From the NCBI RefSeq assembly GCF_020966775.1, contig NZ_JAJKFV010000002.1, positions 496,001 through 560,000 on the forward strand: a stretch of DNA of 64,000 bases. The letters are read 5' to 3'. The first letter of the stretch is position 1; each line of letters begins with the position of its first letter. This document shows, in pieces, positions 33,271 through 43,423 of this stretch. Below the pieces are notes generated by a model. That model did no database searches. It saw only the letters and a list, made by a program, of their open reading frames with translations, and was not told the origin of the DNA. The position numbers and the translations under genes were made by a program. The DNA comes from Rhodopirellula halodulae. Its GTDB lineage: Bacteria > Planctomycetota > Planctomycetia > Pirellulales > Pirellulaceae.

Positions 33271-33336
33271 CAGAAGTGATTGTCCATCAAAGAGTGCGGC
33301 TCATACCGATCCGTCGATTCGGTCCGAAGCGTTAGG

Positions 33337-34956
33337 TTATGAACTGCACGACAACATCGAACAACCCGGACGATGACGTGCCCATTCCGGTCGCTTTTCC
33401 GCGAATCGTTCTTTGCCGGGTTGTTCGTCGTACGGGCGTCGCAACACATCGAGCAATTCATGGACAACCGAGTGGTCGCCTTTTTCCGACGCATCAATCG
33501 CTAGCTGAGCCAGATAGTTACGAAGCACATACTTCGGGTTCACCAAGTTCATTCGCTGACGACGTTCCGCATCATTTGGTTCGTGACCCGCATCTGACAA
33601 CACTCGCTGTTGATAGGCCCGCATCCAATCCATCAGGGCTTGCCGATATTCCTCGGTGACTTCATCCGCGACGTACAACGCTGGCGACAGAATCGCGAGG
33701 ACGTCTTTCAAGACCAACTCCTTCGGCTGCGAACGTGTGCCGAGTTCGATGTCGGCAAGTTGACGATAAAAGATTGTCATGTCGGTCTCGGCCAGTTGCA
33801 GCAGCGTCAACAACGAATCCACCAACTCGTCATCGGTTTCACTTTCGTAGGTCGACCATCCCAGTTTCGCAGCCATCATCGCGTGCCATTCGTCTTGGAA
33901 CGCGCTGACATAAGTCGCGATGCCGCGTTGCAACGGTTCGGCCTCTTTCACCAAGGGAACCAGTGCATTGGCCAAAGCGACCAAATTCCACTGGGCGATC
34001 TGCGGTTGGTGCGCGTAGCGATAGCGACGGCCTTGCGCGTCCGTGGTGTTGGGCGTCCAATCGGGATCGTAATCTTCCAACCAACCATACGGACCGTAAT
34101 CAATAGTCAGCCCAAGGATCGACATGTTGTCGGTGTTCATCACCCCATGCACAAAGCCGACTCGCATCCAGTGCACAACCATGGTGGCAGTCGTGCGGCA
34201 GACTTCTTCAAACATCGCCGCAATCGTGTCGGGAGTGATCTTTGATTCGCCTTCGACCAAATGCGGGAACTCCGATCGAATCGTGTGATCCACCAGCGTG
34301 CGTAGCGTCTCCAGATCCTCTCGCGAGGCGAAGATCTCGAAGTTGCCAAAGCGAATGAATGATGGAGCCACACGGCAAACGATGGCCCCCAGTTCATGTT
34401 CCGGATGCCCGTCATAGAACATGTCGCGAAGCACCTTCTCACCCGTCAGTACCAAACTCAATGCGCGCGTCGTGGGCACGCCGAGATGGTGCATCGCTTC
34501 ACTGCATAGAAATTCTCGGACGCTGGATCGCAACACGGCCAATCCATCCGCCGTGCGTGAATAGGGCGTGCGTCCCGCGCCTTTGAGCTGCAACGTCCAA
34601 TGATGATTGTCAGCGGTTTGGACTTCGCCCAGGTTGATTGCCCGTCCGTCGCCCAGTTGACCGGCCCAGTTCCCGAATTGGTGACCGCCGTAGCACATCG
34701 CAAACGGCTCCATGCCATCGACCAATACGTTGCCGGCCATCGCCTGAGTCAGCTCGTCCGAACCCAACCACTTTTGGTCCAATCCAATCAGATTCGCGAC
34801 CTCTTTGGATCCCGCGACCCAACTGGGATTGGACACGTGTGTCGGGTCGACCCGAGAGTAACCCGCTTGATGAACTTGCCGAACGAAGTTGCGAGACTCA
34901 GAGTCCGCGGGCAAATCTCGCGTGAATCGATTGTCAAATTTCAGATCAAAGGTCAC
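33337..34956 (-). CDS. selO: Protein adenylyltransferase SelO (YdiU/UPF0061 family)
   Basis: The protein has about 539 residues from a GTG at 34956; reading further upstream enters a repeat element and gives an Arg-rich non-conserved extension, so I reject that longer start. It is a pseudokinase-fold enzyme that AMPylates proteins. Blocks seen are 'CYGGHQFGNWAGQLGDGRAI', 'QLKGAGRTPYSRTADGLAVL', 'SSVREFLCSEAMHHLGVPTT', 'RVAPSFIRFGNFEIF', 'GVMNTDNMSILGLTIDYGPY' (metal-binding region) and 'NPKYVLRNYLAQ'. The C-terminus ends in SCSS, with Cys where eukaryotic SelO has selenocysteine. The 5' end, including the GTG, lies inside a duplicated 232-bp unit. Confidence 0.94.
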   Translation of the reverse strand: MTFDLKFDNRFTRDLPADSESRNFVRQVHQAGYSRVDPTHVSNPSWVAGSKEVANLIGLDQKWLGSDELTQAMAGNVLVDGMEPFAMCYGGHQFGNWAGQLGDGRAINLGEVQTADNHHWTLQLKGAGRTPYSRTADGLAVLRSSVREFLCSEAMHHLGVPTTRALSLVLTGEKVLRDMFYDGHPEHELGAIVCRVAPSFIRFGNFEIFASREDLETLRTLVDHTIRSEFPHLVEGESKITPDTIAAMFEEVCRTTATMVVHWMRVGFVHGVMNTDNMSILGLTIDYGPYGWLEDYDPDWTPNTTDAQGRRYRYAHQPQIAQWNLVALANALVPLVKEAEPLQRGIATYVSAFQDEWHAMMAAKLGWSTYESETDDELVDSLLTLLQLAETDMTIFYRQLADIELGTRSQPKELVLKDVLAILSPALYVADEVTEEYRQALMDWMRAYQQRVLSDAGHEPNDAERRQRMNLVNPKYVLRNYLAQLAIDASEKGDHSVVHELLDVLRRPYDEQPGKERFAEKRPEWARHRPGCSMLSCSS

Positions 34957-35135
34957 GCGAAAATCTCGTGGAAGTTCTCGCCGTAGCGAAAGTCGTCGAG
35001 ACTTTCGAGCTCTCGCCAAGCAGGTCGAAACTCTTGACGAGTTTCGCTACCTGAACATTTCGCTGTCACGAACAACGAGCGAGAACCGGCTAGGGGAGTG
35101 GTGCAAGACAACTTACCCAGACGTGCTTACACGAG
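34911..35135. repeat. Tandem direct repeat, copy 1 (covers the selO start)
   Basis: This copy aligns with 35143-35367 at an offset of exactly 232 bp along its full length with scattered substitutions. It contains the first ~15 codons of selO and a long imperfect inverted repeat (34983-35050; arms beginning GTAGCGAAAGTCGTC and ending GACGAGTTTCGCTAC) able to form a ~26-bp hairpin. It ends in CGTGCTTACACGAG, the same bases that end copy 2. Confidence 0.9.
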
Positions 35136-35142
35136 CCAGTCA

Positions 35143-35367
35143 GCAAATCTCACGAGAATCGATTGTCGAATTTCAGCTCCAAGGCCACACGGATATCCCG
35201 TGGAAGTTCTCGCCGTAGCGAAAGTCGTCAAGACTTTCGAGGTCTCGCCAAGCAGGTCGAAACTCTTGACGAGTTTCGCTACCTGAACATTTCGTTGTCA
35301 CGGACAACGAGCCAGAACCGGCTGGAGGAGTGGTGCAAGACAACTTACCCAGACGTGCTTACACGAG
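35143..35367. repeat. Tandem direct repeat, copy 2 (relic selO start; ends in DUF1552 stop)
   Basis: The second copy of the 232-bp unit lies between selO and the DUF1552 gene. Its hairpin is at 35215-35282. Its right end includes the last codons and TAA stop of the DUF1552 gene (35359-35361). Its left end contains a degenerate copy of the selO start, listed separately. Confidence 0.9.
35150..35188 (-). pseudogene. Relic of the selO 5' end inside repeat copy 2
   Basis: Reading the minus strand from 35188 gives GTG followed by codons for VALELKFDNRFS and then TGA. The intact gene reads VTFDLKFDNRFTRDL from the matching position 232 bp away. The CGA to TGA change at codon 13 ends the frame, so this is a non-functional duplicate of the gene start. 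Confidence 0.75.
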
Positions 35368-36711
35368 ACCGGTCAGGGCACCATCGCCGCAGAAATCGGG
35401 GTTTCCGAATGTCTTTTGGCCGAAGCCCATTTGCTCGGCGATCGTCAACAAGAATCGGTTGTGGGGAACCTTGCCGTAGTCTTTCGCACGCCCGGTTTGC
35501 AGGCCCAATCCGCCACCGACGCAAACAAACGGGATGTCGTTGCGGGTGTGCGAGTTGCCTTTGCCCAGTTCGTTGGTCCAAACAATCGTGGTGTGATCCA
35601 ACATCGATCCCTCGCCACCGGGTTCCGGCGTGTCCTGCAAACGTTTCGCCAAATGAGCGATTTGCTCGCAGTACCAAGTATTGATTCGAATCAGTTTTTC
35701 GTAAGCGTCTTCGTTCGAATCCGGTTCGTGTGACAGACCGTGGTGTCCTTCATCAATGTCCAACCATCGCATTCGAGGCTGGCCGACACTGTTGGTGATT
35801 TGGAACGTTGCTACGCGAGCGAAGTCGGCCGCCATGGCGCTCACCAACAACTCGGTTTGCATCCGAGTGATCTCGGGCATGTTGTCGTTTTGCACTTCCA
35901 CGTTCGGCGTCAATTCCGGAACCGCATGCCCCACGTTGTTGGTGCTGGCTTCCAATTCGATCTTCAAGTCTTTCTCGACTTTTCGCACCAACTCTACATG
36001 CTGTTGAAGCAGGTGACGATCTTCTGAACTGACCATGGATTCGATTTTCTTGAAATCGCCGGTCAAATCATCCAGCACGCTGGCCAGCAATTCTCGGTTC
36101 TTCGCTTGGCCGTAAAGCTTGTCAAACATCTTGTAGGGATCATCGATCGGAGCGACCGGTTGGTTCGCTCCCGCGTACGACATCCGCGTCCATGTGTCGG
36201 CCCGATCCGGAACCATCACGCCAAACTCCAACGATCCAAACCGAGTTCGCGTGGACGGATCAGCTTGCAATTGGTTCTTCAGGAATTGATCGATGCTGAT
36301 GCCCATCGACCACCCGGCGGGCGTATCACTGCCGCCTTGGATATCGCCGGGGAACAATTCGATTCCGGTCAACAGACATCCCATGCCTCGCATGTGACCA
36401 TCGCCATCACCTTGAATTTGGTTGCACAAACCTTTGATGGTCAGCGTTTGGTTCGCGAAAGGTTCCAGCGGCTTCAGAATGCGTTTGAATTCCAGCTTTT
36501 CCTCGCCCGCCGTGGGCCAGAAGTGTTTTGGAATCACACCATTGGGACTGAAGACGATGATCAATCGTTGACGCGGAGTCGCATCGGCGGCGAGTGCCAG
36601 ACTCGGCAGATTCATCGTGAAGTTCAGCGCGGCGGCGCTGATGCCGGTACGCTGCAAGAATCGACGTCGAGACAGACGTTTGGACTGTTGGCGTTTAGCA
36701 ATTTTTTCCAT
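35359..36711 (-). CDS. DUF1552 family exported protein
   Basis: The protein has 450 residues from the ATG at 36711; a TTG 9 bp upstream is a poorer start. A GGGAG box lies about 11 bp before the ATG, inside the end of the preceding gene. The N-terminus carries a twin-arginine signal ([18 protein letters not shown]). DUF1552 blocks are clear: '[18 protein letters not shown]', '[16 protein letters not shown]', '[15 protein letters not shown]' and '[19 protein letters not shown]'. It is distantly related in style to DUF1501. It follows the DUF1592-type cytochrome gene by 5 bp, its standard partner. The last codons and stop lie within repeat copy 2. Confidence 0.93.
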
Positions 36712-36716
36712 CGTTC

Positions 36717-39158
36717 TCAAGCTCCCACCGTTGATTGATTCTTGGCTGGTTTCTTCTCGTCGTTTGATTCGGGAAGCACATCGCTCGCCGCAATCACCGC
36801 AATCTCGATCAACAACTTCTGAATGTTGTAATCAGATTGCCGGAAGGTTTCGGTCAATTCATCCAACCGATGGGCGCCATAGGACGCCACCGGTTGCTTT
36901 ACAAAGTACTGGAACATTCGAGTCACAAAAGCTCGGTGCGTGTCGGGATTGGCAATTGCCACCTCCGCCAAACCGCGTGCTCCGGTGAATTCGATGCGTT
37001 CATCGTCGCGAGTCAGGTAACTTCCCGACGCATCGACGGGTTTCTTCATGTCTTGTTCGCGAAAACGTCCCACGGCGTCGAATTGCTCCAACGAAAACCC
37101 AAGCGGGTTGATCCGCGAGTGACATATTTGGCAACTCTCGGGACTGGTTTGCAATTCAACGCGTTCTCTGGTTGTCAGATCCGGATGCAGGTCAGGACTG
37201 AGCGGTGCAAAGGCTTCGTTCGGCGGACGCAGTGTACGTCCCATCACATGACGCAGCAAAAACACACCGCGATGAATCGGCGAAGTCGCCGAGTGATACG
37301 ACAACCGAGCCATCACCAAGGGATGCGTCAGCACACCGACGTGAGTCCGCGGATCGCCCACCGTGCGGGTCCATGTTTCGTCCGATTCGGCTGGCTTCCA
37401 CGCATCACCATAAAACTCGGTCAGACGTGGGTTCGTGTACGTCCAATCGGCTGCCAATAGCTGTCGAAAATCGCTGGTCTCGCTCCAAATGGTGTCGTCA
37501 AGGAATCGGTCCAACGACTCACGCAAATCAGCAATCAGTTCAGGAGTGAAACCCGGATACTTCTCATCGTCTTTGCGAAGATCGTCTTCCGGGCCAAGCT
37601 CCATCCAGTGATAGAGCATTTGTTTGAGCTTCGCCCGAGTTCGAGCGTCGTCCAGCATTCGTTCCGCAGAACGACGGATGACGGCCTCGTTGCTGAGTTG
37701 CCCCTTTTCAATCTGAGTCAACATCCAGCTTTCGGATGGCAACGAATCATGCAACACGAGTGCCAAACGATTCGCGGCTCTTTGTGAAACGCTGCGGTCC
37801 TGATCCAAGGTGGGATACAAAAAACGAGGTGACTTCAATGTCATCAACACCACTGATTTGATGATGTCCGACTCGTCTTCGAATGCGTCCATTGCCGGTC
37901 TGACAATACGTTGCGGTTCAGTCTCCGATTCATCGCCGCGATGCGCCACCGTGACGAAATCCGTCAAGAAGTTCTTCATTTTGTCCTGGCGAGAGCCTTC
38001 GTCTTTCTTGTGACGACGCAGGTACTCTTTCCACAGCTCATCCCGCATCGCTTCGGCCAATTCGATGGCCCCTTCGGTGACGGCGGAGTCCCAAGCGGTA
38101 TCGACCGAGATGCCTCGTTCAAAACCATAGCTGCTGTCATCCGGCGGCATCGTGGTCGCCATCTGCAGCACGGGCGGATTCCAACCGGGCATCATCGCCG
38201 ATGCGGGAATGATGGTTTCAACCCCGCCGGGTGGCACCCAAGAAAGCGAAATGGTTGCCGGAGGCGTTTCGCCCTTTCGTTTCCGTTGGTTCAAATCAAT
38301 TTTAAACGGGTACACACGCCCGGCCGTCAGCAACAACGTGCGACGAAACTCTTCACGGCCTTCGGACTGGACATGGTTGTCGATCAACTGTCGGCCGCCG
38401 TGGCCGAAGTCCATCGTGAACGAAGTCTTGCTGCGGACAATCAATTCATAGCGTCCCGTTTGCTCGATTCGCAGACCGCCTTCCCAATGAGCATGGAACT
38501 CGTCCCAAGCCACACCTTCACCGGGGCCTTCTTTGCCGAAGTCAAAATCGATCACGGGATCAACGCGTTCGATCTTTCGATTTTCTTTCTTCCAACCTTT
38601 GCCTTCGTAGATCGATACCTTCAACCCAGCTTCGTTGCGGTGGGTTTCCCAACGAGTGTTCTGCAGTCCAGCAAAGTGTGCATAGAGATCTGCCAAACTT
38701 TGACGGAACTGAACTCCCGTCAAACGTTGCAATGATTGTCGTGGTGGACGGTTCCGAATCTGAGCCGCTTCGCTGTAGAACGCGTGATGGATGTAAGCCG
38801 CAACCGCCGCGGCGTCTTCACCAACGCACAGATCGGGGTCTTCTTCCGGCATCGTGTCGACAATGATCTCGGTCAACTCACCGATGGAGCCATCACCGAC
38901 CAACGGATCGGGATAGTAGTCTTCGGTGCCGATGCCTTGTTCGCCGTGACACTGCAAACACTGTTCGGCGTAAATCTTCTTTCCAGAAGACAGCACGGGA
39001 TCCGCCGCGATCAATTCGTCCGCCGAATTCGACTCCGCAGCGGAAAGCGGCAAAGACAGACTCATCGCAACCACGGTCAAGAAGACCGGGACTCGTAGGA
39101 AGAACGTTTCGGCAAGAGCAGCGATCGATGCGCGTACCGATCGAGGGATGCAACGCAT
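36717..39158 (-). CDS. DUF1592/DUF1588/DUF1585 planctomycete cytochrome-like protein
   Basis: The protein has 813 residues. A signal segment lies at about 20-41. The first haem motif is CLQCH (residues 67-71, after 'GKKIYAEQ'). '[16 protein letters not shown]' marks DUF1587; a PA14-like beta domain spans about 190-330 ('[17 protein letters not shown]', '[13 protein letters not shown]'). DUF1592 follows ('[18 protein letters not shown]'), then DUF1588 ('[20 protein letters not shown]') with a second CxxCH (CQICH, about residue 673), and DUF1585 at the end ('[18 protein letters not shown]'). Role unknown; probably periplasmic or surface redox or binding. The next gene is DUF1552, 5 bp after the stop. 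Confidence 0.93.
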
Positions 39159-42997: not shown

Positions 42998-43423
42998 CGA
43001 GGGCTGAGGGCTGAGGGCTGAGGGCTGAGGGCTGAGGGCTGAGGGCTGAGGGCTGAGGTTTAGCCATCGCATTGTTAGCGGTGCGGCGCAAGCCGCCTGG
43101 TACCGATTCGCACAAATTTCGTGACTCGTTCCAACATCATCGTAGGCCGTACCGAAGCGAAGCGGAGCTCCGGCACCCGCCCAGCGTCTTTTCAAAAAGC
43201 ACCCACGCGGCGGTAATACCATCCAGCCTTCTGGACAAGCTCATCACCGCTTTGCCGGCCGATCAGCCTGTCGACAGCATCCACTTCCTCGCGTCCCGTG
43301 CCGCAACAAACACGGGGGTTTGGAAGAGGAATTCGCCCGCGACTCAAATGTTGGCATCCGCCGCACAGAAGCCTTAAGCTGAAACTTGGTTTCCATCCCC
43401 AACGCAGCTGACAAGGATCTCTG
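42998..43423. other. Repeat-bearing intergenic region (426 bp)
   Basis: Between the LOG gene and the aldehyde dehydrogenase gene. It holds a heptanucleotide array (43001-43058), a small perfect hairpin GCGGC-GCAA-GCCGC at about 43083-43096 with a GNRA-type loop, and a purine-rich stretch around 43150-43190 (CGAAGCGAAGCGGAGCTCCG). Short frames here show no protein features. The promoter of the aldehyde dehydrogenase gene must lie here, but I see no clear boxes. Confidence 0.4.
43001..43058. repeat. Heptanucleotide tandem repeat (GGGCTGA) x 8.3
   Basis: Eight exact consecutive copies of GGGCTGA plus two further bases, starting a few bases after the LOG stop codon. A seven-base unit in a non-coding position is a typical slippage-prone microsatellite. 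Confidence 0.95.

Follow-up and report, generated by a model that had tools for sequence, protein, structure and literature searches.

Tandem duplication of a REPIN-bearing region between selO and a DUF1552 gene in Rhodopirellula halodulae

How did the region between selO and a neighbouring DUF1552 gene come to be present twice in Rhodopirellula halodulae, and did the hairpin that it carries contribute to the doubling? The locus lies in a stretch of 64,000 nucleotides (the window; contig NZ_JAJKFV010000002.1, positions 496,001 to 560,000), in which a repeat search found two direct copies of 225 nt, at 34911-35135 and 35143-35367, that are 92% identical at an offset of 232 nt. TRF places the array at 34911-35376, with a period of 232, 2.0 copies and a score of 799. 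The positions of the selO GTG and of the DUF1552 TAA on the minus strand show that the unit spans the end of DUF1552, the hairpin and the beginning of selO.

33337..34956, minus strand: selO (SelO protein AMPylase family), 539 aa, GTG start at 34956-34954, inside copy 1 (Pfam PF02696, E 1.6e-130)
34911..35135, minus strand: copy 1, selO-proximal, with a relic DUF1552 end, the upstream intergenic part, a REPIN and the working selO start (repeat search, TRF, alignment with G010 and G002)
34983..35050: REPIN of copy 1, made of REP 34983-35007 (plus strand, 1 mismatch) and REP 35026-35050 (minus strand)
35136..35142, no strand: 7 nt separating the ungapped copies and bridging the copy 2 selO codons and the copy 1 relic of the DUF1552 end
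35143..35376, minus strand: copy 2, DUF1552-proximal, with the true DUF1552 end, the upstream intergenic part, a REPIN and a decayed selO start (ungapped match to 35367, TRF to 35376)
35150..35188, minus strand: decayed selO start of copy 2, GTG plus 11 codons and TGA (translation VALELKFDNRFS, then stop)
35215..35282: REPIN of copy 2, made of REP 35215-35239 (plus strand) and REP 35258-35282 (minus strand)
35359..36720, minus strand: DUF1552 gene, 453 aa as listed, stop TAA at 35361-35359 (Pfam PF07586, E 9.7e-85)

An earlier note on this DNA had described two copies at a constant offset of 232 nt, each running from the last codons and stop of DUF1552 through a hairpin into the first codons of selO, and both points agree with the repeat and with the minus-strand gene ends. 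It also rightly took the selO start of copy 2 as decayed to a TGA, but counted GTG plus 12 codons where there are 12 codons including the GTG, from 35188 down to 35150. The relic of the DUF1552 stop in copy 1 is found in the sequence at 35129-35127. The GTG start of selO is identical in the relatives G010, G002, G004, G005 and G007. Elsewhere in the window, positions 42999-43058 hold a perfect 7-nt tandem repeat of GAGGGCT in 8.6 copies.

The hairpin and its REP family

The hairpin in each copy is a 68-nt REPIN composed of two GTAG-tagged 25-mer REPs in head-to-head inversion, and the two REPINs differ at 2 of 68 positions. The REP pattern is GTAG followed by CGAAASTC-GTCAA-GASTTTCG (family sequence GTAGCGAAASTCGTCAAGASTTTCG). 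The window contains 4 matches to it (100 shuffles gave 0) and the whole genome 67 with up to 3 mismatches, against 0 for a reversed-pattern control, so that a repeat by chance is ruled out. The genomic REPs form 28 clusters, including 16 adjacent head-to-head pairs within 60 nt, and 12 of the 28 clusters are single REPs. Stem pair 10/20 of 62 REPs (up to 2 mismatches elsewhere) is G-C in 27, C-G in 23, T-A in 8 and unpaired in 4; this covariation (58/62 paired) indicates that paired changes preserve the stems. All four REPIN folds are much more stable than those of shuffled sequences (z -5.1 to -7.3). The REP is present in all 13 genomes of the genus, this one included, at 4 to 230 copies (control 0), and, with up to 2 mismatches, in 8 of 196 genomes of the order, this one included, in a draw without other members of the genus.

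The element is thus a palindrome tagged by an unpaired GTAG, dispersed in many copies and joined in inverted pairs into a larger hairpin; by structure it belongs to the GTAG REP/REPIN family. It shares with the GTAG-tagged super-family, as described in the available parts of Di Nocera et al. 2013 (PMC3733652), the GTAG tail, an 8-nt stem, a 5-nt loop, head-to-head dimers and tandem reiteration with flanks. Rfam gave no match, and a literature search pairing Rhodopirellula with "repetitive extragenic palindromic" found nothing by those words. As far as the accessible text of the two papers goes, R. baltica is reported to carry different REP families (PMC3733652), and satellites of that species are named without detail (PMC6749651).

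We classify the element by structure only, because at 89 loci of 10 genomes, obtained from 90 PF01797 matches and covering up to 1.5 kb on each side, the search found no gene for a RAYT (Y1 tyrosine transposase) with a pair of this REP close on its flanks. With up to 5 mismatches the REP occurs at two of these loci, about 1.3 kb from the gene at L160 and, in degenerate form, about 0.7 kb off at L188, and neither is a flanking pair. About 20 of the 89 loci carry pairs of other GTAG/GTGG hairpins, and REPs without a found RAYT are on record (PMC3733652, in its section 16). The survey also met a trio of near-identical Y1 transposase genes in G002, spaced about 1 kb from one another (L079, L087 and L096; C1 6437942-6440280), each with GTAGCCATTGG-type REPs, which are a tandem array of the whole REP-transposase unit.

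Relatives, relic gene ends and the history of the duplication

The two genes are adjacent in 6 of the 13 genomes of the genus; the other 7 gave no selO match in the stretch examined around DUF1552. At the same junction, the unit is single in G010 and G002, and G004, G005 and G007 have unrelated intergenic sequence without a REPIN. When copy 1, copy 2, G010 and G002 are aligned, 15 sites pair the two copies against both relatives and no 2:2 site conflicts with this grouping. Hence, the duplication postdates the split from G010 and G002. The earlier note had proposed that the region was duplicated locally in tandem, taking both gene ends along, and that one selO start then decayed; this is borne out by the single copy in these relatives and by the lack of dispersal of the full unit. 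The recent date that the note had in mind finds no support. The event is not very recent, because the copies differ by 8% (ungapped 225 nt) or 10% (wider alignment), against 12-15% between either copy and G010 and 16-18% between either copy and G002. On the other side of selO, in the spacer before a SurE-like gene (33271-33336), G010 and G002 have a second REPIN, absent from this genome, whose flanks are similar to those around the REPIN upstream of selO, and the region has about 103 nt in common with the unit.

The two copies have since fared differently. Of 16 changes that could be polarised, 9 lie in a stretch that opens about 10 nt before the selO GTG, and all 9 fell in copy 2; of the 7 upstream of this point, copy 1 took 5 and copy 2 took 2 (Fisher p 0.0048, for a split point picked after the sites were seen). 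Today selO starts in copy 1 and DUF1552 ends in copy 2, and the unused duplicates of both are decaying. At the joint, the selO sequence GAGATTTGC abuts TGAC of the DUF1552 end; the exact joint had 0 matches in the contigs of other genomes, a collection that possibly lacks the window's own genome. The unit ends in the last DUF1552 codons and near selO codon 15, at least 72 nt from the REPIN. If the ancestor read CGCTGACC, as both G010 and G002 do (the two relatives from which the ancestral ends are reconstructed), the letters shared by the ends would be GC only. Such ends, with about 2 nt in common, would point to a duplication of the microhomology or template-switch type.

We consider it highly probable that the locus results from a single tandem duplication of the REPIN and its flanks in the lineage of R. 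halodulae, with each gene retaining one end. In this reading, a DUF1552/selO intergenic region with one REPIN of two inverted GTAG-tagged REPs doubled once, head to tail, after the split from G010 and G002. Each gene then held its own end, selO in copy 1 and DUF1552 in copy 2, leaving the redundant halves to decay. The data show directly how many copies exist here and in the relatives, in what order the events took place, to which REP family the hairpin belongs and that decay was asymmetric. Probably, the hairpin makes duplication more frequent locally, for example by stalling replication; since the unit ends away from the REPIN, this causal role is one that we only infer.

REPINs, duplication and the alternative explanations

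If REPINs favour duplication, tandem units might be expected near other members of the family. TRF arrays of period at least 60 (232, 112, 114 and 72) were found at 4 of the 28 REP clusters, whereas among 145 control intergenic regions 2 had one (p 0.0067), in a small test where both control matches come from one array and the 72-nt-unit array may be mostly REP sequence. Leaving out the cluster of the window gives 3 of 27 (p 0.028). The controls were drawn from 400 kb of stretches without this REP, and a crude ORF rule was used to delimit the intergenic regions. REPIN arrays with even spacing are also common in G002 and G010 among the matches listed, but were left out of the count because they had been chosen for their even spacing. 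Three orthologous arrays vary in size between G002 and G010: one of 148-nt units (5 v 2), one of 217-222-nt units (about 4 v 2) and one counted in REPINs (10 v 3); a fourth pair (L146/L152) of the four compared for orthology was non-orthologous and was dropped. A long degenerate tandem array of period about 73 nt, without this REP, is present in the R. halodulae genome (L099 13602-15525, contig C29).

The REPIN could have been a bystander in a chance tandem duplication by microhomology. The position of the unit's endpoints, at least 72 nt from the REPIN and with some 2 nt of shared sequence, agrees with such an event, as does the lack of an array of period at least 60 at 24 of the 28 REP clusters. 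Yet this reading leaves unexplained the excess of arrays at REP clusters over control regions and the frequency of evenly spaced arrays among the matches listed in G002 and G010. We regard it as a serious possibility, although we lean against it. Far less credible is a mobile-element reading, in which the whole 232-nt unit would be dispersed; to it we give almost no credence. Its 68-nt core is dispersed, and the region of the second REPIN past selO in G002 and G010 shares part of the unit. But only 2 of 52 matches to the 225-nt query in the genome are full-length, these being the two copies themselves, and nearly all of the 50 partial ones lie inside query positions 61-155, which correspond to the hairpin. 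Furthermore, the unit ends inside two genes and its joined order fits tandem duplication. The whole unit was therefore rejected as a dispersed element. The dispersal that the earlier note had set against a local duplication is true of the hairpin core, a GTAG-type REPIN, and not of the full unit.

Other explanations invoke exchange or selection. In comparison with G010, the segment 34957-35358 is better conserved than the noncoding DNA nearby and the third positions of codons. The upstream part outside the REPIN is 83% identical in copy 1 (63/76, with 13/76 differing), against 53% and 65% at the third codon positions of selO and DUF1552, 63% (171/272) in the intergenic region upstream of the next gene, and 75% (48/64, poorly aligned) in the spacer beyond selO. 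This could be caused by either constraint or exchange between lineages. Exchange would fit the unrelated sequence of G004, G005 and G007, which are nearer relatives of G010 and yet have a different region there. That the REPIN-bearing region moved between species as a swappable block flanked by conserved genes, with REPINs acting as local duplication hot spots, seems unlikely to us. More improbable still is that the doubled region was kept for the expression of selO or DUF1552, either through REPINs acting as mRNA stabilisers or terminators between co-directional genes or through a doubled promoter. The REPINs are predicted to fold strongly as RNA, they have hardly diverged between copies (2/68 positions), and REPs are mostly downstream of genes and may be transcribed, according to the available text of PMC3733652. 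However, a sigma-70-like promoter scan found no site (planctomycete promoters may differ from this pattern), there is no Rfam match, and some relatives have one copy or an unrelated intergenic region. Moreover, copy 1, which adjoins selO, retains the entire upstream region found in one-copy relatives. A doubled promoter that would affect selO, as suggested in the earlier note, thus finds no support, and the second REPIN may alter read-through from DUF1552.

The reading that we prefer, a single tandem duplication of the REPIN with its flanks, has parallels in known systems. In the consulted portions of Bertels and Rainey 2011 (PMC3116915), REPINs of Pseudomonas fluorescens SBW25 are two inverted REPs making one hairpin, and they are repeated in tandem with their flanks, usually with a short unrepeated stretch between units; the sections of PMC3733652 at hand likewise report REP dimers reiterated in tandem together with flanking DNA. 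At selO, units of flank, REPIN and flank also lie head to tail around a short unrepeated stretch, and their number varies among relatives (2 here v 1). Unlike the clusters of SBW25, as far as they are described there, this is one 232-nt duplication that also bears two gene ends, in a planctomycete, with no neighbouring RAYT found for this REP. The duplication is real but ordinary, a further example of the published tandem reiteration of REPINs, and the wider reach of the finding is little. It adds a planctomycete case to this phenomenon, in which polarised changes trace the doubling of a REPIN region along with two gene ends and the retention of one end by each gene. It also calls for caution in reading short relic gene starts and stops beside REPINs, which are debris of duplication.
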